Source: Chaenocephalus aceratus (taxonomy: Eukaryota; Chordata; Actinopteri; Perciformes; Channichthyidae). From it: a DNA stretch of 64,000 nucleotides. The stretch's first letter is position 1. Every line of letters begins with the position of its first letter. The stretch is from assembly GCA_023974075.1 (NCBI GenBank), contig CM043785.1, positions 23,687,169 through 23,751,168 of the forward strand, in the 5' to 3' direction. The position numbers and the translations under genes are program-made. Below the pieces are notes generated by a model. The model ran no database searches. It was given only the letters and a program-made list of their open reading frames with translations, and was not told the DNA's origin. Positions 172-60,261 of the stretch are shown piece after piece.

Positions 172-2824
172 TATCACCAGACTTTTAAACATAGCTTTTC
201 TTCTAAAACATATCTGCAGTGACATTTTATTTTTCCTTATACTCTTGTAGTTAGTCCAACTAAAAGGGGCTCTTAACATATTTAACACCCAAGGATCAGT
301 TAACAAGGAGTACCACTTAGCCTCCTTTTGGTAGAAATCTGTTTCTGGCCCCAAATTCCATGTAATTTTAATACTAAATCGTTGGAGAACCTCTTAAGCA
401 GCAGAGACCACTACAACAGATTAACATTGCCAGTATTACTACTGAATTTGGCAGAAAAGTAGGCCATGAGCAATGATGATCTCAAGCAGCAGAAGCTCAA
501 ATGTGTATGTTGTTTGGCTAAACCTTTGCGTTGGGTAAGTGGTTGGGGTTTCAATCATCAAAGTGTCTCTAAACAAGACAGTACACGAGTTATGTTCTAA
601 ATACATATGTAAATCAATGTAGGTATGTATGTATAGCAACACCATGTGGCCATTCATAAAGCACTTTTTTTATCTGGCCGATAATTCTGAAGCATGGATG
701 CATGAATATAGCAACAACAACAACAACAACAACTCAGAGATTCACTTTGTGTTCATTATGCATACAGTATAACTCGCCACCAGCCACTCAGCATGACTGT
801 CTGACACTTCATCTTTTGAATAACAAAACAGACTATACAGACAAATATTAAAATTAATGATTAAAATAAGTGTGTGACCTTCTTGGAGATATGCATTCTG
901 AATGCCTTTTAGCTTGACTACACTTATTAGAGGTTTGTTTTTGGAGTTTGTGCTGCATTGGATATTGATTCAAAGTAATATATATTTGTCCTTCTTTTGC
1001 ACCCACTGACTTGAATACATAATCATACTTGTTAACATTTTAGTCCTCAAGCATTTGCATGACTTGTTAGTGTGTGGATTGAATACATCATTCACTTCTG
1101 TCTCTAATAGTGATTTATGGCTTACAGCCTTTAGTGGCTGATAAAAAATAGACAGCTCACTGGTCTGCTAATAATCTGCCCCTAATAGGCTACACATCTC
1201 TAACACTCTGTATACTCCAAAAATAATAGCGGGTATTGTAGACAGTATTCAATGTTACATGTCTAATATATGTCATTTGTAATGTAAAGCGCATTGAGCA
1301 TCTGGAAAAGCGCACACATAATTGTTATTGATTATTGTTAGTATGTAAACAAACCCTTCCAGGCTCCATGTTAAGATTTGAATCCTCAGCAGTAAATAAT
1401 GGCAAACTGTTATAAACAGAAATCTGGGTGTGATTGAGACACACAAAATCAAACATAAATCTTTCAAACTGTTTCTGTTTCTCTCGCCAACCGAATAAAA
1501 GTGGTATGGGTAATGTCTGAACTTTTTGTTTTTCTCCCCTTCAGCTCTTTGATAAAAGTCGCAATTTGTGAAACAGACAGACCTGTGAATGAAACCCTAC
1601 AACATTCATGTTTAATTCAGTATATTTATATTGCTCTAAAATTCAATAGATGCTGATAATTGTTATAGTTTACCAACTATAACACTGATTAATGTTTTCT
1701 AAACACACTTGAGGACTACACATTTCTGTACATGAGGCACAGGCACTTTTTTTAATTATATTTTTGTTTGACATGTAAACTCTGCACATCACATGTGGGT
1801 ATTAGTTTGATATTTGACTGATATGATCAGCCATGCACACTTGTTTTATTCAGCCCATGAGCCTCTAGCTGCTGCTCAAAAACACACTTGCTTAACGTGT
1901 AACCAGGTCATGCCACTCAGAACCATGTAGCATAATGGGTTTAATTATGAAAGACAGTCAGTCAACTCATTATGCAACATAATCGGATCTAATTCATATG
2001 ACGTGTTATTAGTCAGAATGTGGGGGTTTGGAATAAGTGAGTGGTGCTCAAGCTGAGCCTGGAGAATGTAATATCTAGATACAAAAAATAAATAAATAAA
2101 AAAGGCAATTATCCATATGTGTAGTTCATGTATATACATAAACTTTGTAAATGGCTTAATGCCGTTCTGTTTCATGATGCAAGTCCATTTGAAATAGGTC
2201 TGTTTCTGCCTGTGGGCTACTGGATAACAACCATAAGCTGAAAACTTAACTGATGTTGTTCAGTTGGGATTAAGGTTGTCAGTAGAACAGCAGTCAATCT
2301 TGCCTCCTGCTTAATCATTTATTTAAAATGTGTCATAATCATAGCCTTGGGTGCTGTTCCTGTGACCCAATGTCTATCTCTCAGAGGAGATGCAGTCATG
2401 ATGGCTGACAACATTTGCCATTCAAAACAGTCAGCATTATTGTAAGATTTCTTTTTTTTAAAAATAGGTTCCTTGATGATTACCTGGGTGTTTTCAGGCT
2501 CTATTTTATCTCTAAAATATTTTTATATTTGATGTTAGTCGGTGGCTCTGTTGCTTTTCTTGGACAAAGAGACACCAAATGTATTATATTAATGTCTCAT
2601 TCATGTCAGCGTGCACTTACCTTCAACATACCAAGGAAATAATGTATGTTTTCATTAATGCTGTTTTGGGGTATATGTCTGGATAGAACATATCCAGCAG
2701 GATTAGATGTCCAACCCTTCATCATGTAATTTATTTTATGAAGGACAGCCAAATATATTGTGTTGTTCGTGTGGCATTAGTTATCCATGTCCCAGACATT
2801 AATTAGGCATACATACACATAAGC
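172..2824. other. No gene recognised; A/T-rich unique-looking sequence
   Basis: Only short chance open frames occur, with no splice-framed or family-like protein. It holds a small (CAA)n array at 712-733 and otherwise nothing I can identify. Confidence 0.6.
712..733. repeat. (CAA)n microsatellite
   Basis: About seven uninterrupted CAA units. Confidence 0.9.
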
Positions 2825-3172
2825 CACGTTCACACCTCAGTACTTTTCCCACTTTAGTTCCAATATAGTTCTGAAATGTCGCGTTCACACCAAAAAGAGC
2901 CGGAACTAAAATTAGTTCATCAGAACCTTTTTACCCCCTTAAAAAGGTTCCGATGTCTGATTAGCTCGGCGGATTGCAAACCACGCCCGTGAAACTCCGA
3001 CAAGGTTTTGTGAAGCCGCCATTTTATTATCCTCACATTAGCATTATCCTCACATTAGCATTATTATTAGCCCAGTGCACAAACGCAGAGAGACTGACTT
3101 ATGGCATCACAAAATAAAACATGGGAGCGGTGGAGATGAGGAGGTGTCGGCGTTCTGGCGATTTACTCGGAA

Positions 3173-4614: not shown

Positions 4615-6748
4615 ATTATTTTTGTGAATTTTTGCAGGTTATTTTTAGGTCAACACACACTGTAAAATCAATTGTATGGCACATCAGAATTTCTGGGAAA
4701 TGTCTAATGACAATTAGTAAAGCCATGCAATATACAACACAAAAAAAAAAAACCTTTGATAGGAAAAATGTAAGTAGTAAGTAAGTGATTTACACGTCAG
4801 AGCCAGACAGTATATCCTCAGAAACACTGTGACCCGACTAGAATTAAAAGCTTTGACCCGTCAACAACCTCTTAGTAAGGAGGTCAGATTATATTATATG
4901 TTAAATAATGAAATCCTCATTAGTGTATGCTTGGTTAATCATGTAGCTTGCTGAGCCTGAAGTGCAGGAAAGTACTGGCAGGGTTTTTTTCTGCTATTTA
5001 TGATTGACAACAAATCAGTTTTACTCCAAGCCTGCTTTCCTTGAAGAGATAGCTAACATCACTGTCAATGTCTTAAAATAGTACCTTTGAGCAGCATTTT
5101 CAGCTATTTATTGGGACGCGAACAGTAACTGAGAAACTGGGCAAGCTACAATAAAAGATAATCCAAGCTATGTTTAGTACACACTGTTTTAAATCAGCCA
5201 AATGTGTTCAAAGTTGGAAACAACATGAGGCACTGCTTATTATGTTTATATATCCTGAAATCAATAAACAACCTAATTCTAAAAGAAAAATAAAACAAAA
5301 GGAAAGTTACGTATGTGTGCGAGTGTGTGTGTGTGTCTTTTTCTTCATTCTATATGTTCAGGTGCTGGACAGATGAGAAAAACACACATTTACTTTTGGC
5401 AATCAGGATTTAGTGGTGAGCATGTGGAGGATAATTAAGGCCTATTGGGCTCAGGCTTAAGCACACATGGTACTGTTAAGTGAATGCTTGAGATGTCCAG
5501 GCCCAATGAAACTTCTCATTTAGCTCCTGAGTCTAAAGGCACTCTACATCTCAATCTCCAGAGCCCTCCGAGGGGTCCTGCTGGAGCAACTATGATTAAA
5601 ACAAAAGTAATCCTCCGTTAGGGTAGAGCGAAAACTATCACAAATTCCCATTTAACAGAAGGACTGTGGAAACATGGCCAATTGCAAGCTACAGGCTTCA
5701 TACTTATATACTTTCATTTTAAGAACACATCATCAGAAGGTCTGCTGATGTCTGTGGTTAGAAAGGCAGAAATGACCAGTGATGACAACCCCCTTCATAC
5801 ACACGACCAACACATATCTGTGCCTCTTGCCCTGGAGCATGCCAACCTAGCAGCTGGCAGGGAGCTGATGAATGGCATACGACCAGCAGCTGAGGCAAAG
5901 CTGCTCCTCTTTCTACAGTGCAGGAAGTCTTGCTGAGTTGTTTTCCTATTTCTAGTTAGTCATCGCTAGGCACTGTACTTTAAATGTTTCTGCCTCTTAT
6001 AGAGCTTTTTAAATTAGTCTACTCTCATGGAACCAATCTCATCCAAGGATGTAACAAGGTGTTGTTGCATCAAGCATTTAGTCCAACTGCTGCAACCCCA
6101 CGCTCCCCTCACCATCAACCCATCCATTCTCCTGCTAAACAGTTTGCCCCCTTCGCCCTCCCAGTTGGCAAGTGTCCTCCATTTCCTCATTCCTTCCTGT
6201 TTCTCTGTGGGGCCTCCGTTCCTGCTGATGTCTGTGGTTTCGACCCATGGCGCAGCCCCCTCACAGCTAGATGTAGCTGAGCCATCACAGGCATCAAATC
6301 AGAGTAAAGAGCAATCGATAGCGTGCGGTCTAATGTTTATCAAAGCAACACACATCCATCTGCACTGTAGAGCAAAAACACTGCAGTGGTTAACATACAC
6401 AGAGGCTGCTGCTGTTGTCCTGGTTGTAGAAATGAGGGGGAGAGAGATTGTGTGAGATGCAGAGAGATGCTTATTTTTAATTATGCATTTAGTTGAAGCC
6501 GGGAATGCATACTGTGGGCTGTGTTCATGAAGGGAAAGTATAATGACAAGTCAAAATATATTTACTACCCCCCACAGAAGAACATATGTTTACACAGGGA
6601 CTAATTCACATTAAGATTATATCCCCCTAATTTCTTTTGAAACTGCAGTGCTTTGATCTTGTGTAGGGGGCAATTTACATTCAGATGCTATACTTTGGTT
6701 TATTTCGGAACAACAACGCTTTGAAGTTATGTGTCAGTGAAGATTGGC
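4615..6748. other. No gene recognised
   Basis: Short open frames near 5682-5936 and 5984-6455 have no recognisable motif and overlap in two frames of the same strand, as chance frames do. A brief GT array lies at 5323-5336. The segment 6290-6480 is more GC-balanced, but I see no exon signals. Confidence 0.55.
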
Positions 6749-6754
6749 ATTTAC
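6749..6754. repeat. Left target-site duplication (atttac)
   Basis: Identical to 11050-11055 and abuts the inverted repeat exactly on both sides. Confidence 0.75.
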
Positions 6755-7324
6755 TATGAGGGGCCGTGTAGGCCAACATTCAAACTCACCTTGCACACAC
6801 ACTACTGAAAACCTCTGGCCTTGCACACACACTACTGCAATACTCTCACATTCACTACTGAACACCTCACACACACACTACTGAAAACCTCTGGCCTTGC
6901 ACACACACTACTGAAATACTCTCACATTCACTACTGAACACCTCACACACACACAACTGAAAATTAAGCCTCACATATATTACTGAAAATTAACCTCACA
7001 CACACACAACTGAACATTAACCTCACACACACACTACTGAAAACCTCTGGCCTTGCACACACACTACTGAAATACTCTCACATTCACTATTGAACACCTC
7101 ACACACACATTACTGAAAATTAACCTCACACACACACTATTGAAATCCTCTCACATTCACTACTGAACACCTCACACACACACACTACTGAAAATTAACC
7201 TCACATACACGCAACTGAAAACATTTTACTGGAAGGTTCTTAGTAGGGAATGTGCATGTGTTTCACCTATGTGTGTGAGAGGGGGATTCTTGCTGTAACG
7301 GAAGTTATTGTAATGTAACAGAAC
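6755..7324. repeat. Left terminal inverted repeat of the 4.3-kb element
   Basis: The outer ~40 bp and the inner ~100 bp (7225-7324, through ctgtaacggaagttattg) have near-identical inverted counterparts at the right end. Between them, 6795-7222 is a variant tandem array of 23-30-bp units built on (ca)n plus ACTACTGAA. Units end variously in aacctctggcc, aatactctcacattc, aacacc or aattaacc. Confidence 0.85.
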
Positions 7325-7843
7325 TAACAAAGAACAATGCTGCAGTGATACAGTAGGTGGCGATAATGCTCGTCTGGTTGCAAGTTGCCATTAAAGAAGA
7401 AGAAGAACGAAAACAGAAGGTTGAATTGAGCATGGATTTATAGAGAAACAGCACCGCAGCCTTAGTCTGGACCCCGGGCCGAGCGGTCTACAAACTGAGA
7501 CGGTCTGGTCTATCGAGGTGTTCTTGTTTACATCACCTGGCGCAGCTCGTGATGTGGCCTAGCAAGTAACCCGTTAGCAACATGCACAGCTGCAATAAGC
7601 TAACAAGCTAATTGAGCCAGAACGTTTCCTTTTTTTTGTTTTAACATTTATTGAAGTAATTGATATTTCAGGCTGAGAGGACAATGGCCTGTTAAATATG
7701 GTTGATTAATTGTACTTCTAGCCAACAGATATGTTAGCATTAGTTAGTTAACAGTAAGTAAATATAAGACTAACCTATCTACTCCAGCTAGCCGGCTAAC
7801 CTACATTTGTTGCTCCCGGTCTGCACGTTTTACGTTGCTTAAG
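7325..7843 (+). promoter_or_regulatory. Promoter-like edge with a strong splice donor (plus strand)
   Basis: Inside the left arm comes gtaggtggcgataatgc, then ccattaaagaagaagaagaa. Next is a GC-richer, CpG-containing stretch (about 7440-7600, e.g. accccgggccgagcgg) that stands out from the A/T-rich surroundings. It ends in a textbook donor, cttaag|gtaagtg, with the exon boundary at 7843. This fits a 5' untranslated exon transcribed inward from the left arm. No TATA box or start site can be assigned. The function is inferred from base composition and the donor only. Confidence 0.4.
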
Positions 7844-8214
7844 GTAAGTGAACATGAAACTATTCAGCAAAACTTTCAATAATAATCTAAGGTATTGAGT
7901 TTTGGGATATTACTTGCATACAAATCTATAAATGCCTTCAGGTTTCTAAAATATACAATATGTGGTAAATTCAACAGTGGACCCAGCAAAGATTCACATT
8001 TTTGCATGATTTTAGTTATTGATTTGTTGCTGTTACTTAATTATACTTTTAATAAATTCAAGTCAAGCTTAGTTACATGTGATTGTAGCTAGTTAGTGCT
8101 CTTACCTGTGTGCCTCCTCCACAACCAGACTGTATTCAAACTCTTAAGTACCAGTTCTATCTACTTTAAACAATTAAAAAGACAAAATCAACTACATGTA
8201 TTGATATACAAATC

Positions 8215-8220
8215 TTTATT
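8215..8220 (-). terminator. Possible polyadenylation signal (minus strand)
   Basis: AATAAA on the minus strand, about 440 bp downstream of the stop codon of the putative minus-strand gene; another lies at 8352-8357. The hexamer is common by chance in A/T-rich DNA. Confidence 0.25.
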
Positions 8221-8494
8221 TTTGGGGCCTCTTCTTCTTTTAAATTAAACTTTCAGACGTGAGATATTGAAATACAGCAATAGTTTTGTCTATTTAAAAA
8301 AGAATGAGCCATTCCTTACAGTTAACTTCATATTTCTTATTGTCTAAAGCATTTATTACACACATTTCCCCCTCATATTCACAGTGTGGATCAATTGGGA
8401 CAGCGTGCAGAGACTTTGGGAGAAACCTCAGCGTGACGGACGTCCTGTCTGTGGGTTTGGCTGGAGAGGACTGAGGTGGAGAGGTCTTTCTCTG

Positions 8495-8534
8495 GGAGGA
8501 GGACCAGGCCTGATGGAGGAGGACCAGGCCTGAT
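8495..8534. repeat. Tandem duplication, 20-bp unit x2
   Basis: ggaggaggaccaggcctgat occurs twice head to tail (8495-8514, 8515-8534). It lies in a GC-richer patch (8390-8650) that is open in two minus-strand frames. A 20-bp period shifts frame between copies, which argues against strong coding constraint there. Confidence 0.9.
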
Positions 8535-8661
8535 GAAGAAACCACCTAACTGCATCTGTGAGCCCATACTGGGCACAGCTGTCACAAACAAATGATGGTC
8601 CTGTTTGACCTTCTGTTCACAATAAAAGAGTAGTTTCTTAGTGAATGTCATGTATTGGTCT

Positions 8662-10315
8662 TTAATCTGATATCAGCTTTTCCTTTTCTTCTGGCCCCTC
8701 TAAGAAAACGGTGAGGCAGTCGTGTCTTTCAGGCATGTCCTTTCCTAACAGAAATGACAAGAAACATCAAACCTATGACATTATTGCAGAGTAAGTGTGT
8801 TATTTATGAAAGAGGTGTTTGTTTATTTAGCGGCTGTAGAAATAAAAAACATTTTTATTTTAATGTGTTTTTTAAATTCATCACTTTGTACTACAAAGAT
8901 AATCAGATTATGAATGAAAAGTCTGCAGTTAATCAACATTAAAAGATATGTTATTATTAAATAATATTCAACTGTTATCAGAACTTAGTGTAAATGTAGT
9001 GTCATGCTGTTCGGTTGTCTCACTGCAAGAACCACTTTTACCACGTCTTGTAGAGACACATGGTACTAATTCTCACAATGTAAAATAATAATTTCCTTAA
9101 ATACATTGAAATGTGAAAGCTGATTATAGTTGTTACTTTATCTATTTAAACCAGAACGTTTCTCGATTCTTTGTAAAGTATGAAAGGAGTCTTTGTACCT
9201 TTTAGTCCATGCTGAAGTTCACTGATGTTAGAAATAGGTCTGTGTATCGTGGTCAGCATCCTCTGGTCTGTCTGCATCACCTGGAAACTTTAAACAAACA
9301 GATATATGAAAAGTAACAATGTGTTGGTCACAGACTTTTTTTACATGCAAATGTCATGTGATAATCTTTTTGTTATCCTTAAAAGTGCTGGATATCACAG
9401 CCCTTACTCTATCTTATCAGTTGGATTGTGTATTATTGTATAGTTGGGGTCCTTTTTATTTTACTGTTATTTTGGAATCGTTTTTCATGAGACAGTCAAA
9501 TGAAATATATGTCCTATGCCATATTCACATTCATTTGTAACACACATGTAAGGGTAAAAGACAAACATCTTTAACAAATGTAATGCAATGAATAAGCTTA
9601 ATTGTCACAGAAGCACACATAACGTCATATCTAATATTTAAACAAATAATTTCCTTGTCCCTAAAGCCTTGACTACGCTCTAGTCCTTAAAGGCAGGCAT
9701 TACGTTGTATGTTCACGTTCTGCTGCCACAATAAGTCGGTTTCTCCAGTGTAATGGTAATAAAATGCTAAGTAAGTATTGGTAATAATATTAATAAAAAC
9801 AACAACGTTTGGGTTCGTTCGTTTGATATGATGAACGTTAACCAGTAAGCTTCAATAATCAACTCCAGCTCAACAAACCATATTGCAATATCTACGTCAA
9901 CGTTATTTCTGGAACCAACTGGAAATGTGAGATTCATATTTTTAAGATACACAGATCTTATAGTGAGGTTAATCTCATACAGTACTCTGCTCTTCAACAC
10001 TAATGTGACGCTAGCTGTCTGCATCGTCGAGCATAGCTGTTTTAAATTAACAATACCAATGCATACAGTTACCTAACTAGCAAACTATCTAATGTACAAG
10101 CATGACCTTATTTTATCAACCTCACCGAGAAGTATTTTGTTCTACAGTATAATCTTTCTTAAGGATATACACTTCTCTATTATGTTTGAACTTGTATGCT
10201 ACGGATAGCATCGTTAGCACAGATGTAGCTTCGTCTCGCTCGTTAGCTGAAAAGCTAAAAAAACAAGTAACAAATAAAGTGCTTGAATTTCACTTACCGA
10301 ATAAACTGCATTCAT
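8662..10315 (-). CDS. Putative three-exon mini-gene inside the 4.3-kb element (~60 aa)
   Basis: Read on the minus strand. Exon 1 is ATG at 10315-10313 to 10298 (MNAVYS) and ends at the donor g|gtaagtg. Exon 2 is 9280-9199, after tttccag and before a good donor aaaag|gtacaaag; it encodes 27 residues starting VMQTDQRML plus one base. Exon 3 is 8744-8662, after tttctgttag, and encodes ...KDMPERHDC... to ...EKLISD and a stop at 8664-8662. The phases agree (0 then 1), and both joins keep the frame. Exon 1 lies in a GC-richer, promoter-like patch just inside the right arm. I do not recognise the product: exon 2 is mildly amphipathic and exon 3 is acidic at its end. Exons could be missing between 9281 and 10297. 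Exon 3 overlaps a competing plus-strand splice signal, so the model is tentative. Confidence 0.35.
8752..8790 (+). other. Possible small plus-strand exon
   Basis: The acceptor tcctttcctaacag| is followed by 39 bases and the donor gcaga|gtaagtg. It would encode MTRNIKPMTLLQ from an ATG at 8754. Both splice sites are strong by eye. It could pair with the donor at 7843. It abuts, on the opposite strand, the acceptor of the minus-strand model (8745-8747), and at least one of the two is likely coincidental. Confidence 0.25.
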
Positions 10316-10470
10316 GGACGGTCTGTTTGAACCGCAGAGCCATAAGATAAGTGCGATATTTCAATGAAGAATACTCCACCAGGCATCAACACAACAAACA
10401 CGTCCGAGTAGCAGCCTGGAGCTAATGAAGCTAACGGGGCTAGCAAAGAGACCACTAGCAGAGCAGTTTG
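10298..10470 (-). promoter_or_regulatory. Promoter-like edge beside the right arm (minus strand)
   Basis: A CpG-containing stretch (cgtccgagtag, ctaacggggctagc) next to the inner end of the right arm leads into exon 1 of the minus-strand model and its donor at 10297-10291. It mirrors the plus-strand arrangement at the left arm. Confidence 0.3.
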
Positions 10471-10491
10471 GTACTTCCGTTTCATTACAAT

Positions 10492-10603
10492 GACTTCCGT
10501 TTCATTACAATGACTTCCGTTACAGCAATAATCCCCCCACACACACATAGGTGAAACACATGCACATTCCCTACTGAGAACCTTTCAGTAAAATGTTTTT
10601 CAG

Positions 10604-10642
<39 letters not shown>

Positions 10643-11049
10643 CGTGTGAGAGAGGTTTTCAGTAGTGAATGTGAGAGTAGTTCAGTAGTATGTGCGTGAG
10701 GTTCATTTATAGTTGCATGTGTGAGGTTTAATTTTCAGTTGTGTATGCGAGGTGTTCACTAGTGAATGTGAAAGTATTTCAATAGTGTGTGTGTGTGGGG
10801 TTAATTTTCAGTTGTGTGTGTGTGAGGTTAATTTTCAGTTGTGTGTGTGTGTGAGGTTAATTGTCAGTTGAGTGTGTGTGTGAGGTTAATGTTCAGTAGT
10901 GTGTGTGTGACGTTAATTTGCAGTTGTGTGTGTGTGAGGTGTTCAGTAGTGAATGTGAGAGTATTTCAGTAGTGTGTGTGCAAGGCCAGATGTTTTCAGT
11001 AGTGTGTGTGTGAGGTGAGTTTGAATGTTGGCCTACACGGCCCTTCATA
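10492..11049. repeat. Right terminal inverted repeat of the 4.3-kb element
   Basis: Inverted counterpart of 6755-7324. The inner part carries a 20-bp unit (acttccgtttcattacaatg) repeated at 10473-10492 and 10493-10512 with a third partial copy; the left arm has only one. The array at 10606-11020 consists of gtgtgtgtgaggttaattttcag-like units. It opens with a pure (GT)n run at 10606-10639 absent from the left arm, so the arms have diverged by repeat slippage. Confidence 0.85.
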
Positions 11050-11055
11050 ATTTAC
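11050..11055. repeat. Right target-site duplication (atttac)
   Basis: Matches 6749-6754. Confidence 0.75.
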
Positions 11056-14016
11056 GCTGGTCTTGTATCTCTCTCTTAAAGCAGTGGACATCATATTATC
11101 AACAGAAGTATCACTGTAATATCATTTATCACATCTTAAACTGAGGACAACAAATACATACAGTCATATTCAGAGGTACTGCATAAGAGACACCACCTTA
11201 TATTCCCTTAGCTCTTTGAGCCATAATCCAGTATCCAAGGACATGAGCCATTTTAGAAAAGCACAGGAGGATTTTGAAGGCTACAACTGGAACTTTGTAT
11301 TCTGCTAGGCTGCTTACTCACACAGTAGCCTCTAACCCAGGACTTATCAAGCTGGAGAGGTTCATGTTTTTTTTAGAGTGCTTTAAAGCTACATAAACAT
11401 GAAGAGAGAATGCTCTCTCGTTTATTGTGTTGGCATATAGGAGGGCAACAATGTGAATATAAGTATCCAATGAATGTATCACATGAGCATTAGCTCTTTA
11501 AGTAACACAACACAGCAGCCTTGGTGGTGGTGGGTTGCAGCAGGATACAAGCCCCTGGGTCCCTGTCAAGTATTATTATTTGCTGCAGTATGCTGTCTAC
11601 TGGCCGACAAGTAAATAACCATATGAGAACATATCCGCTCTCCTGCATGTAGTCCCTCATACTTCTTTCATGCTCCCGCTGATTTCTCTGTTAAAAGTTA
11701 ACAACAATTGTGTCGTTGGCGGGTGGGGGTGCAGCTGTTAGAGAGAAGACATGCACTTGTGTGCGCACGTTTTGCATGTGCACAAGCACACATCTGTTCA
11801 TACACTGTTTGTTAATATAAATGCCCAAGGCTAACTTAAAATGGCAAATAGGGTCGGTTGCAAGACGCAGAAAGAGTGAGGGATATATTAAAGGGAAGCA
11901 TGCAGATGCACAGTTTTCTGGCTGCGCACGACCCACATGATGTGGACCACTTTCTCAACAGCAGACAAAAAGCAATCATTATTTTAGCACTAGGGTGGAT
12001 TAGCAAGGCTTACTAGGAATGTTATCACTCTCCCATAATGTGCTGCATGGTATTAGCATAAAGCGAAAAAATGATTAGACACCCTTTATCTCTGAATCAT
12101 GTAGGGTAACTATGCAATTATTAATAGGAGCTGTCACAATCATGCCATGCTTTTTGTGGAGCTTACCATTACACTTTATACAAAATAAAACATGTTTGTT
12201 GAAATGTAAGGACATAATCAGATACAAATAAGTTTAACTGTTTAGAAAAACAAAAACTCGGAAATCTTTTGAAGCGCTGCCTACACTTATTCAAACTGCC
12301 CCCCTTACTGATTACATGCATATGCTTCAGTGGTTTTCTTTAACATTGGGATATGAATGATTTAACTCAAGTTGTAAAATGATTTGATTTTAAGATTCAA
12401 ATGCTTTAGATTTCGGTAAATATCCTCAGTGTTCAGAGAATCAGGGAGGGCACGTTAGACACTAGATACTAGATTATTATTATTATTAATAAAACTAAAC
12501 TATGGTTTAATATTCTCTCAACCTCTCAACTGCAAGAAATACAATATTTAAGGTATGACTTTTACATCCCAACCCTACACTCATTGATACACATAATGCA
12601 GGTGTTTCTGGATTCTAGCTGACAATCAGACTCTGCAACACTTGCTCTGCCTTGCCTTGTTGCACTTTCATTAAATAAGCAAGATGAAACGGAGACTATA
12701 TTTGTCAAGTGAAGTGTCACGAAAAAAAAAGAAAAAAGACATTGCCTGAAATTATTGTGGCAGCTTCAAACTTGTGTTTGTAACCATGAAATGGAGCATA
12801 ACAAAGACATCAAAACACATGCTTGATTATACTGTATGCTTACAACATAAATGTAACAAACACCATGAAAAGTACCTTGGGTTGACTAGAAAAATATTGA
12901 AAGTGACAAAATCTGTTGACAGAACACAACGACATTAGCATATATTTCGAAGACAGCAAGACGACAGGTTGTGTTTTTTCCCTCCTACTTTTCCTCCTTT
13001 CTATGTGCTGTGAATTCTGATTCCGTTGCATTTCAGTGATTTTTCCCGAGCTTAGCTTTCATCACTGGTTGGCCGTCTGTCGGACTGACCTGTCTGAGTA
13101 AAGGTGAGCGGCATCACATTGGGCCCAAGGCCAGTTTCACAAAAATACGAATGATTAAAGAGGAGGCAGAGAGATCCAGCAGCAAGCAGTCTGCAGCATC
13201 AGCCCTCAATTTATTTTTCTCGGTCTCCACCTCTTACTCACTAATTCACACCTCCTTACTAATGCCCTTCTCAGCACCTTTCTATCCACTGGTTAGATCT
13301 TCAAAATCCTTTGTCTTTCTTATTTTCACACCTCCTCTGATCAAACTATTCCACCGTTCTTTCTGTATAACCTCCTTTGCTCAGTCAGAAGCAAAGATGT
13401 TTTTTGTAAAGAGTTTGTAAAGTGTGTTTTAATGTAAAGCACGCAGCAGTGCATCCCGATGCAATATGTATTATTGTTTTATTACATACCTAAAGCTTCA
13501 ATATTCTCAAATCAACAACTATTCACATCACATTAATACAAACCCATGACATCAATGATCATGGTTCAACAGACAATAAAGATCAGTTAGAAACATATTA
13601 ATAGCAAGCTGCAGCAACATAAATAACTAAGGTCTATGTGGAATGACTCATACTGTAACCTATAAACATGGTGCAAAGGAAAATGTGTCACAAAGCATAG
13701 CAGGAGCAGTGCATAGAGATGCAAATGTGTTGACTGGGGCTTCTTAGTTTTGCTAAGTAATCCTTGACAAAATATGGATTTGAAATTGTTTCTACATTCT
13801 TGTTGCAGTGGATATCAGATGAGTCATATCATAAAGTATGCAAATGATGGCCATTTTGTTGGAGGATAACATTGTTGTCAATCTTTGTGCAATCCTTTAG
13901 TATGTTTCTTGAGTTGCCTCACACGTGTTTATATATAATGTATTGTTAATTGTTAAGTACAACGTCCTAAGTTAGTAAATGAAATGGGACCATATGTGCT
14001 TCTTACATTTTAGGAC

Positions 14017-43324: not shown

Positions 43325-45229
43325 AGCTTTGCCTCTGGTTCTTTGTAATGTCCTCAACTCTATCATTAATCCATGTGATGTTTTTTCAATTGTGCAATTT
43401 ACTCTCTGTGATAAGTTTCTTACATCTGCTCTTAGGCTAGCCCACACAAGTGCCACGCCAGATCCTGCTCCTTTTCTGTGCCCTGCTATCCTCGACCACT
43501 TTGAGCCTGTATCCCTCTCTTCTCTCTCGGATGTAGTCAAGCACCTGCGGCCGACAAAACTGCACCTCAGATAGCATTCCCTCTCGCCTTCTCAGAGATG
43601 TTTTCGATTCAGTTGGAGCAAGTATTTTATTACTTATAAACACCTCTCTTAGCTCAGGATGTGTCCCAGCAGCCTTCAAACATGCCGTGGTGCAGCCACT
43701 ACTTAAAAATAAAAATCTCGACCCCTCCATTCTCACAGATTTTAGGCCCATCTCAGCTACCTTTTTTATCTAAAGTCCTGAAACGAGTAGTCTATGCCCA
43801 GCTGCAGTCTTTTTTAACCACGCATGGCATTCATGAACAGTTTCAGTCTGGCTTCAAACCCATGCACAGTACTGAAACAGCCCTTTTAAGAGTTTTTAAT
43901 GATCTGCTCCTAGCGGCCGACTCAGGTAGCCCAGCTTTCCTGGTGCTGTTAGACCTGACAGCTGCCTTCGACACTCTGGACCATAGCATCCTGTTGTCAC
44001 GACTTGAACAGTCCACAGGCATCACAGGCTCTGCCCTTGCATGGTTCAGGTCCTACCTGACAGACCGCAGCTTCTCAGTGCAGCAAGGTGCCTTCTCCTC
44101 TGCCAAAGCCCCTCTTACCTGTGGGGTTCCCCAAGGCTCTATTCTGGGCCCCATCCTTTTTCTACTGTACATACTGCCCCTAGGTTCAATTCTCACAAAA
44201 CACAACATCCCCTTCCATTGTTATGCCGATGATGTACAGATCTATCTGCCTCTCAATTCTAATGTCAACTCATTACAGCTATTGATGGACTGCTTGACAG
44301 AGATCAAATCCTGGCTGAGCCAAAATGTCCTCAACCTCAACGAGAGCAAGACCGAGGTCATCTTTTTTGGACCCCAACTTCCAGCCTCTCCAGTTGATAT
44401 TCTGGTCTCCCTCAATAAAAATATCCTCCCCTCTGTCATGAACCTTGAAGTGACCTTCAATAGCGCTTTTAAATGTGATAAGCAGGTCAGCACCGTAGTC
44501 AAAACCTGCTTTTTTTAAATATGACTATTGGCCAAGACTAAGTCGTTTTTATCTTTTAAATACCTAGAAAGGGTTATTAATGCCTTTGTAACCACAAGGC
44601 TGGATTATTGCAATGCTCTATATGTGGGTATGGACCAGGCGTCAATTAGACGCCTGCAGCTAGTGCAGAACGCAGCTGCGCGTCTTCTTACTGGCCACAA
44701 AAAGCGTCACCACATCACCCCAATTATGGCCTCATTGCACTGGCTTCCAATTAGGTTCCGAATTGATTTTAAACTCCTTTTATTTGTTTTTAAAGCACTA
44801 AATGGGCTGGATACGGCTCATATAGCAGAACTCCTCCATCGCTACACCCCAGCCAGAGCTTTAAGGTCTGCTGACCAGCTGCTGCTGGTAGTGCCCAAGA
44901 CCAGGCTCAAAACCCGAGGGCACCGAGCCTTCGCAGCAGCTGGCCCTAGGCTCTGGAACACTCTGCCCCTCCATATGAGGTCAGCCCAGACCCTAGGGGT
45001 TTTTATATCAACACTAAAAACTCACTTCTTCTCCCTGGCCTTCTAGTCAGAGCGGAGCATGACTCATGACATTTCCCTGTGTTTGATTTTTATATTTGCT
45101 GTTGTAATTTACTGTATTCTGTTTGCGATTGTAGTAATGTGTTATTTATTATTTGCATGTACAGCACTTTGGCTCGACCAAAACCCTTTTTTTAAATGTG
45201 CTATATAAATAAAACCTGATTTGATTTGG
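43325..45229 (+). mobile_element. 5'-truncated L2-type LINE
   Basis: The copy starts in the linker between endonuclease and reverse transcriptase, carries most of the RT and C-terminal region, and ends in GTGCTATATAAAT (45198-45210) plus a tail with ttgatt repeats (cctgatttgatttgg). The endonuclease and any first ORF are missing, the usual outcome of target-primed reverse transcription. No flanking duplication was found by eye. Confidence 0.85.
43329..45046 (+). pseudogene. Reverse transcriptase and C-terminal region of the L2-type LINE (decayed)
   Basis: Non-LTR reverse transcriptase, which copies the element's RNA at a nicked target. Conserved blocks in order: FEPVSLSSLSDVVKHLRP (about 43500), SSGCVPAAFKHAVVQPLL (about 43650), LPFLSKVLKRVV, FQSGFKPMHSTETALL, LLDLTAAFDTLDHSILL, CGVPQGSILGP (about 44120) and the catalytic YADD (codons 44221-44232, within FHCYADDVQIY). 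A C-terminal domain with RLDYCNALY and RAFAAAGPRLWNTLP follows. The reading frame changes at about 43570 and 43753, and two stops (44516 and 44522) interrupt the frame before LAKTKSFL. The stops are consistent with C-to-T changes at glutamine and arginine codons. The catalytic core is intact, but the protein cannot be made whole. Confidence 0.88.
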
Positions 45230-59408: not shown

Positions 59409-60261
59409 TCTGTCTTGACACACAGATTTACTTTCAAACTACCCCGGATGAACATCTGGCACTTTCAAATGTCTCAAGATGCCTGGAACACATACAACAC
59501 TGGATGAGCAACAACTCCCTCCAACTAAAAAGCAGCAAATCAGAGGCCAGTCTGATTGGAATACCACATCAAACACAAAAAAAGGATATCCCTCATATCA
59601 CAATCAATGGCCACTCCATTCCCCTCTCTCCACTTGTAATGAGCCTAAGGGTGAAACTGGACTCATCCCTTTCATTCTAAGCACACGTTAAGACGGTCTG
59701 CCAAGCCTTGTACTACCACCTGAGGAACATCTCCAAAATGCGACACTCCCTCACCAAACCGGATGCAAAAAAACTGGTCCATGGCTCCATCACCTCCCGC
59801 ATTGACTACTGCAATTATCTGCTTGCAGGCATTCCAACAAAAACCACTCAGAGACTGCAATATGTTCAAAACTGTGCCTCCTGGATACTCACAAAAACAC
59901 GCAAATCAGAGCACATCACCCCCATCCTTCACTCACTCCACTGGCTCCCTGTAACCCATCGGATCAACTACAAAGTCCTCATACTGTTCTTCAACGCCAT
60001 CAACCACACTGGCCCCGGCCCAACTACCTACAGGAACTGCTAACCAGACAACATTCCCATACCTCACGCACACTCAGGTCAGACAGCTCCAATCTCCTGG
60101 CTGTCTCCCGGACAAAACTGGTCACCATGGGAAACCGTGCTTTCTCCTCCCTGGGTCCACGTCTGTGGAATCAGCTTCCAGAGAACATACGGACCTCGGC
60201 ATCACTCACAGTTTTTAAGAAAAGCCTCAAGACCCACCTGTTCCGCACCACATTTTACTGA
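59409..60261 (+). pseudogene. C-terminal part of an L2-type reverse transcriptase (decayed)
   Basis: Readable blocks are DTQIYFQTTPDEHLALSNV, WMSNNSLQLKSSKSEASLIG, LRNISKMRHSLTKPDAKKLV, SRIDYCNYLLAG, HITPILHSLHWLPV and, after a frame change near 60015, GNRAFSSLGPRLWNQLP to the stop at 60259-60261. The order matches the C-terminal half of the LINE at 43325 (compare RLDYCNALYVG and HITPIMASLHWLPI). Frame changes also occur at about 59680-59708. Of the YADD motif only the last aspartate is recognisable (ICLDTQIY), so the active site is lost. Confidence 0.8.

Follow-up and report, generated by a model that had tools for sequence, protein, structure and literature searches.

In a stretch of 64,000 nucleotides from Chaenocephalus aceratus (GCA_023974075.1, contig CM043785.1, positions 23,687,169 to 23,751,168), hereafter the window, we found a transposon copy of 4295 base pairs (bp) which is probably (at a rough probability of 0.8) a non-autonomous member of IS3EU (IS3EU/GingerRoot), a known superfamily of DNA transposons. 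No transposase was found in the interiors that were read, and the assignment therefore rests on the ends and the target duplication. An orphan-looking transposon thus gains a superfamily from its ends, its target duplication and an empty site. There was no evidence for a new transposition mechanism, and the element is real but fairly ordinary. Its outer parts are the following.

6755 to 11049, no strand assigned: transposon copy, 'B-type' (our own label), 4295 bp
6749 to 6754, no strand assigned: left 6-bp target duplication ATTTAC, from flank reading
11050 to 11055, no strand assigned: right 6-bp target duplication ATTTAC, from flank reading
6755 to 7325, plus strand: left inverted arm with terminus TATGAG, inner limit taken from the arm alignment
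10492 to 11049, minus strand: right inverted arm with terminus TATGAA on the minus strand, inner limit taken from the arm alignment
6787 to 7221, plus strand: minisatellite within the left arm, four overlapping tandem-repeat rows

The copy was flanked by ATTTAC on both sides (TATGAGGGGCCG...CGGCCCTTCATA), and this exact duplication could not be extended beyond 6 bp. The inverted ends were TATGAGGGGCCG and TATGAAGGGCCG, with end sequences reading TATGAGGGGCCGTGTAGGCC... and, on the opposite strand, TATGAAGGGCCGTGTAGGCC...; the ends of the family as a whole were TATGARGGGCCG, that is, TATGA..TCATA. A 21-base piece of the end occurred twice in the window with up to 3 mismatches, compared with 0 occurrences in 100 shuffles. 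The arms were about 560-570 bp long, with strong similarity stopping at about 7325 and 10492 in the arm alignment, and were identical at 115 of their first 120 aligned bases. Between the outer and inner conserved blocks they were filled with tandem repeats differing in copy number between the arms, including a repeat of period 76 with 5.3 copies at 6787-7194 on the left, and a GT repeat at 10606-10648 and a repeat of period 27-29 at 10777-10940 on the right. Many of the 136 inverted-repeat pairs found were minisatellite against minisatellite. This anatomy agreed with an earlier note on the window, which had described a transposon with inverted ends, tandem-repeat-filled arms of about 560 bp and an abutting 6-bp ATTTAC duplication.

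The host assembly (1.06 Gb, 3032 contigs) contained many related ends. With the first 246 bases of the element as query, 317 candidate places were obtained, of which the best 40 were scored. A 27-base end with at most 2 mismatches occurred 215 times (100 forward, 115 reverse) and a variant with A replacing C at base 23 occurred 228 times (106 + 122), against 0 reversed-pattern controls in each case; individual positions were listed for 100 of the 215 and 100 of the 228. A first sample comprised 20 stretches beginning at high-scoring ends. In eleven of these a second end lay within the stretch or, in L017, was reached by it, and after L015 had been dropped as a duplicate, its flanks being identical to those of L013, 10 loci remained; the other nine stretches had no second end within the approximately 9.9 kb to which they were read. 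For a second sample, 12 further pairs were picked by eye among the listed 27-base ends and both ends were read. Second ends were located with an inner pattern for the 10 loci, and the 12 pairs with a pattern including the terminal bases (2 mismatches allowed). Together with the window copy this gave 23 distinct two-ended loci; outside this set stand the pairs at C1:11314482, C5:17683439, C4:28955119 and C5:5916827 and others from the variant list. Interiors were read for 15 of the 23 (the window copy, L013, L014, L017-L022, L027, L028 and L042-L045), and the other 8 were read at their ends only.

Target duplications were found at most of these loci. Thirteen of the 23 showed an exact 6-bp duplication (the window copy, C1:39.8 Mb, C3:1.45, C4:24.3, C7:25.0, C9:33.4, C1:6.4, C8:25.8, C3:20.4, L013, L020, L022 and L028), for which the probability of at least 13 occurrences by chance is about 1e-39 under the base composition of the window. 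These 13 duplications were mutually different in sequence, and two of them were of low complexity (AAAAAA and ATTTTT). Five further loci had six duplicated bases with one mismatch (C6:1.97, C1:8.1, C4:8.0, L014 and L021). TA was present at both ends of all 23 loci, the terminal bases being part of the search pattern for 12 of the pairs. The earlier note had proposed to check whether other copies have different boundaries or no duplication; we found that 21 of the 23 share the boundary and a duplication of 5-6 bp, counting the five with one mismatch, while two have none.

An uninterrupted target was also recognizable. When the flanks of L028 were joined with a single CATATG, they matched at 96-98% in all 40 scored places (of 290 candidates). 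The 120 query bases lay on exactly 120 subject bases in 35 of the 40, with one extra base in 2 and 1-2 bases missing at the edge in 3. L028 is therefore inserted in a multicopy repeat whose uninterrupted form holds a single CATATG. The case of L013 is weaker: 38 of 40 scored places (of 1217 candidates) cross the junction of its joined flanks, with matches that start just 6 bases before the duplication, at the edge of the similarity to the repeat; the remaining two places were the locus itself and its duplicate.

These features correspond to published descriptions of IS3EU. Complete IS3EU families are described as always having TA..TA termini and usually 6-bp target duplications, and GingerRoot as having 6-bp duplications and mostly TA..TA (PMC10045372), while the account of fungal IS3EU families gives TAYGG..CCRTA ends, 6-bp duplications and terminal inverted repeats over 30 bp (PMC12730594). 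The superfamily is recorded in teleosts, being tabulated in one of four species (PMC4746887), zebrafish judging by genome share, and reported in killifish (PMC12763893). The present family shares with IS3EU/GingerRoot the TA..TA termini, the third base Y of the fungal families, the mostly 6-bp duplication and the inverted terminal repeats, which exceed the 30 bp stated for fungal families both in the window copy (about 560-570 bp) and in copies with longer arms, called A-type here (more than 1 kb). It differs in its fifth base, which is A instead of the G of the fungal TAYGG families, in that no transposase gene was seen in the copies read, and in its minisatellite-filled arms of 0.56 kb to more than 1 kb. 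Styx, an IS3EU-related element of Zymoseptoria, was seen to move in a pedigree with 6-bp duplications, including a copy with a broken, non-functional integrase (PMC10853768). Styx is 7.9 kb long and has four coding sequences, whereas no supported coding sequence was found here. The earlier note was thus right that the copy is a genuine DNA transposon and that its duplication is 6 bp long, and of the two options which it offered, membership of a known superfamily as a non-autonomous element fits best. It had, however, weighed just Polinton and Dada and missed IS3EU, whose termini and duplication length, as published, fit. Its proposal that the element was the best candidate in the window for something undescribed was not supported.

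Several observations weigh against the IS3EU assignment. Duplications of exactly 5 bp were found at three of the 23 loci (L017, L018 and L027) and no duplication at two (C6:24.1 and L019). The link from ends to superfamily was drawn from the literature and not via a transposase in the host genome. Neither a transposase of their own in the 15 two-ended copies with interiors read nor an autonomous partner in our searches was found. Genome matches to rve_3 (PF13683) were rejected as partners, the top ones being bacterial-looking IS481-type genes on unplaced contigs, and so were six further rve_3 loci, read as frames, whose integrase frames were gypsy-type by eye. A genome search for rva_4 (PF24764) gave 445 candidates, of which the best 150 were scored with 153 matches; the closest of these to a family end was 33 kb away, among the 150 places and 146 ends listed.

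Other origins were considered for the same features. An undescribed superfamily sharing TA..TA ends and 6-bp duplications with IS3EU by coincidence would be in keeping with interiors in which no transposase was found, but copies without a transposase are common among DNA transposons and the two features that mark a known superfamily are both present, and we regard this explanation as unlikely. Somewhat less likely still is a non-autonomous member of a hAT subgroup (hAT5 or hAT6) moved by a hAT transposase. hAT elements carry the terminal motif YARNG, which the TATGA termini do not fit. Still, hAT5 and hAT6 are listed with 5- and 6-bp target duplications (PMC12730594), which the lengths found here would fit, and the stretch adjoining the one-ended copy L026 contained a hAT-like frame of 780 amino acids (aa) whose Pfam match to the hAT dimerisation domain (E-value, E, of 0.0064) was below the cut-off. 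That frame, the sole hAT-like one seen, is bounded by hAT-like ends of its own, CAGTGCTGGAAT and CAGTGCTTGAAT, and by a duplication of 8 bp, ATGACAAC, which scored highest among the 8-bp pairs of the scan, and it therefore looks like a separate element.

Polintons have AG..CT termini, long inverted ends and genes for polymerase B, integrase, protease and ATPase. A small Polinton/Maverick derivative would account for the long inverted ends of the window copy, but not for its TA..TA termini, and is very improbable. None of the Polinton proteins was seen in the window region: the stop-to-stop frames at 6600-11200 did not exceed 101 aa, and the eight of 50 listed frames scanned with Pfam gave no match at the cut-off (best E 0.24). 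The 6-bp length of the duplication is that of Polintons (PMC10045372) and would also suit a Dada element, for which 6-7 bp are given (PMC3706591, PMC8869645). Dada-U6 and Dada-U1 are, however, described without terminal inverted repeats (PMC3706591), compared with about 560 bp here, and many Dada families are described as targeting small RNA genes, whereas the window copy had no Rfam match around it at 6500-11400 and no tRNA at 6000-12000. The 13 exact duplications also differ from one another, which counts against Dada, and this origin appears the most remote of all.

With IS3EU as the preferred assignment, the question of the enzyme was followed through the frames of the copies. Leaving aside a 735-aa frame nested in L017, no frame in the interiors of the two-ended copies that were read was longer than 173 aa, and 10 frames of 104-173 aa from six of these copies reached no Pfam cut-off (best E 0.007). 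Ten frames of the first-sample stretches gave reverse transcriptase, endonuclease and RNase H domains, the gypsy-type pol of L024, the weak hAT match of L026, or nothing; none of them appears to be a transposase belonging to the family. The pol frame of L024, a one-ended stretch, was rejected as a partner because its rve domain (E 8e-14) lies beside reverse transcriptase and RNase H and marks a retroelement. The DDE-like frame of L017 was rejected as well, since the element that holds it is a separate one, about 6.7 kb long and with an 8-bp duplication of its own (GTATTATC); its insertion also accounts for the 11.8-kb length of L017. Pattern scans of viral contigs and of genome contigs gave 0 matches each.

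An rva_4 copy at L062 was likewise tried as the autonomous partner. Downstream of its rva_4 gene, L062 has DNA in common with the window interior (E 5e-28), but a query derived from it had 1199 first-look candidates, and the best 40, when scored, showed dispersed repeat DNA. On C18 two pieces of the L062 stretch were found 6 kb apart in reversed order with no rva_4 gene near them among those listed, and a second rva_4 locus, L063, had the gene core alone in common with L062. The link was therefore rejected, as the shared DNA belongs to a dispersed repeat. We take the rva_4 proteins to belong to IS3EU, and an integrase-type transposase would most plausibly come from the rva_4 genes of the host genome.

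Because no enzyme was found in the window copy, we infer that it was mobilised in trans, by an integrase-like DDE transposase from another element. Such a transposase might bind the repeated motifs of the arms and cut at the TA termini; the cut ends would then be joined to target strands staggered by 6 bp, and gap repair would leave the duplication. The movement of a Zymoseptoria copy with a non-functional integrase (PMC10853768) supports movement in trans for the superfamily.

Some observations concern the frames and genes rejected above as partners. The element nested in L017, seen together with L029 (C6:17062766-17069448), has ends CAGAG... and CAGTG... and the 8-bp duplication GTATTATC, and its 735-aa frame (P0006) shows spaced DDE-like motifs, HIDYAENW, SDGP and LEAGHGKG, picked by eye; P0006 matched nothing in NCBIfam or the PDB, and nothing in Pfam at the cut-off. 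The rva_4 integrase-core gene of L062 lies at 1782-3026 on the minus strand and has an apparent intron (WHLDGNHK, then RWRIVIHGGIDGYSR..., followed by DHGGEN and HNQRIERLW), with a related copy in L063. Matches to rve_3 of equal or similar score were found on the unplaced contigs C40 (at least 0.9 Mb), C188, C1986, C2148, C2227, C2960 and C3016. L030-L035, from C40 and C188, have 30-34% G+C, and L032 has a 318-aa frame that is IS481-like by eye. The contigs bearing these matches are probably a bacterial contaminant or symbiont within the assembly.

The window copy itself contained a frame that can be joined from three exon-like pieces into 60 aa.

10298 to 10315, minus strand: first exon-like piece (ATG...GT splice donor) of the 60-aa joined frame
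9199 to 9280, minus strand: second exon-like piece of the 60-aa joined frame
8662 to 8744, minus strand: third exon-like piece of the 60-aa joined frame, frameshifted in 4 of 15 other aligned rows

Coding by this spliced frame was not supported, and it was rejected as a gene. It had no Pfam match. A PDB match to a ryanodine-receptor chimera reached a whole-sequence E of 1.5e-4 from two repeats, with single-domain E of at least 0.36, and weakened to E 0.49 when the A-type version of the frame was the query. By eye, the majority of differences between the window and A-type copies alter the residue. The third exon was frameshifted in four rows (L016, L020, L022 and L027) out of the 15 besides the window copy, a set that counts the duplicate locus L015 and the partial L042. 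The second exon was frameshifted in L017, and the ATG was missing from L021.

The most unusual feature of the family are its rearranged arms and interiors. The segments of the interior, as defined on the window copy, are the following.

7331 to 7804, plus strand: left interior marking the B-type, present in L009, in L011 and partly (224 bp, 83%) in L010; no match seen in A-type copies
7805 to 9874, no strand assigned: unique interior common to A-type copies, in either orientation relative to the ends, in pieces 82-93% identical, mostly 87-92%
9875 to 10456, no strand assigned: 582-bp segment, single here on the right side, in A-type copies an inverted pair with one member near each end, from alignment
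8347 to 9318, no strand assigned: part of the interior with piecewise similarity (67-81%) to a separate dispersed repeat (L064, L065), from alignment

The B-type stretch 7331-7804 is 474 bp long, and the match in L009 was 96.6% over 355 bp. A-type copies, for example L027, L022, L020, L028 and L013, are 5.0-5.8 kb long and carry the 582-bp segment as an inverted pair; if the arms are taken to extend from the end as far as the inner edge of this segment, they are about 1.1-2.0 kb long. Two copies were short, L042 (1205 bp) and L043 (1274 bp), and L044 and L018 had unaligned DNA between family segments. Base 6 was G at one end and A at the other in 21 of the 23 loci, the exceptions being L019 (A/A) and L017 (G/T). 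Relative to the G end, the interior 7805-9874 lay in the window direction in the window copy, L009, L011, L012, L013, L018 and L042 and in the opposite direction in L014, L016, L017, L020, L021, L022, L027, L028, L044 and L045. This scoring is a by-eye reading of the alignment in which L009, L011, L012 and L016 are one-ended (L012 by its A end), L019 was unscorable, L021 is mixed and was scored by its left piece, and the duplicate L015 was excluded.

The two orientations, together with typical copies that have longer arms than the window copy, indicate that rearrangement has taken place within the family. The two interior orientations would be explained most simply by recombination or gene conversion between the long inverted arms, which might also have given rise to the two arm structures, A-type and B-type, but the same orientation pattern would result if the one diagnostic base had been converted repeatedly. 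It is conceivable, though we hold it to be rather doubtful, that the minisatellite arms have served as recombination partners, so that the interior was repeatedly swapped or inverted between TATGAG and TATGAA ends while the element stayed mobile in trans. If true, this would generate new end-interior combinations (A-type, B-type and both orientations), and one transposase may then spread several internally different passengers. With its large arms, conserved end-base difference and both orientations, the family could be used for studying the rearrangement of non-autonomous copies. Given the similarity of 67-81% between window positions 8347-9318 and pieces of the dispersed repeat, the family has an older or sister relative.

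The two copies of that repeat, L064 (C5:7364066-7365417) and L065 (C16:22178485-22179836), are 95.6% alike. Within the B-type left interior, window positions 7350-7409 (ACAGTAGGTGGCGATAATGC...GAAGAAGAAGAACG) resemble a motif frequent at fish gene starts and, in part, the CTCF core. At L024 and L025, two occurrences of the family end have the same 20-base flank and are separated by about 9.8 kb of DNA that holds gypsy-type pol frames; this arrangement could stem from tandem duplication or from a retroelement carrying a family end, and L024 and L025 look like a single place that entered the assembly two times. Elsewhere in the window, at 43640-45046 and 59681-60261, frames judged by eye resemble fragments of the reverse transcriptase of long interspersed nuclear elements (LINEs).

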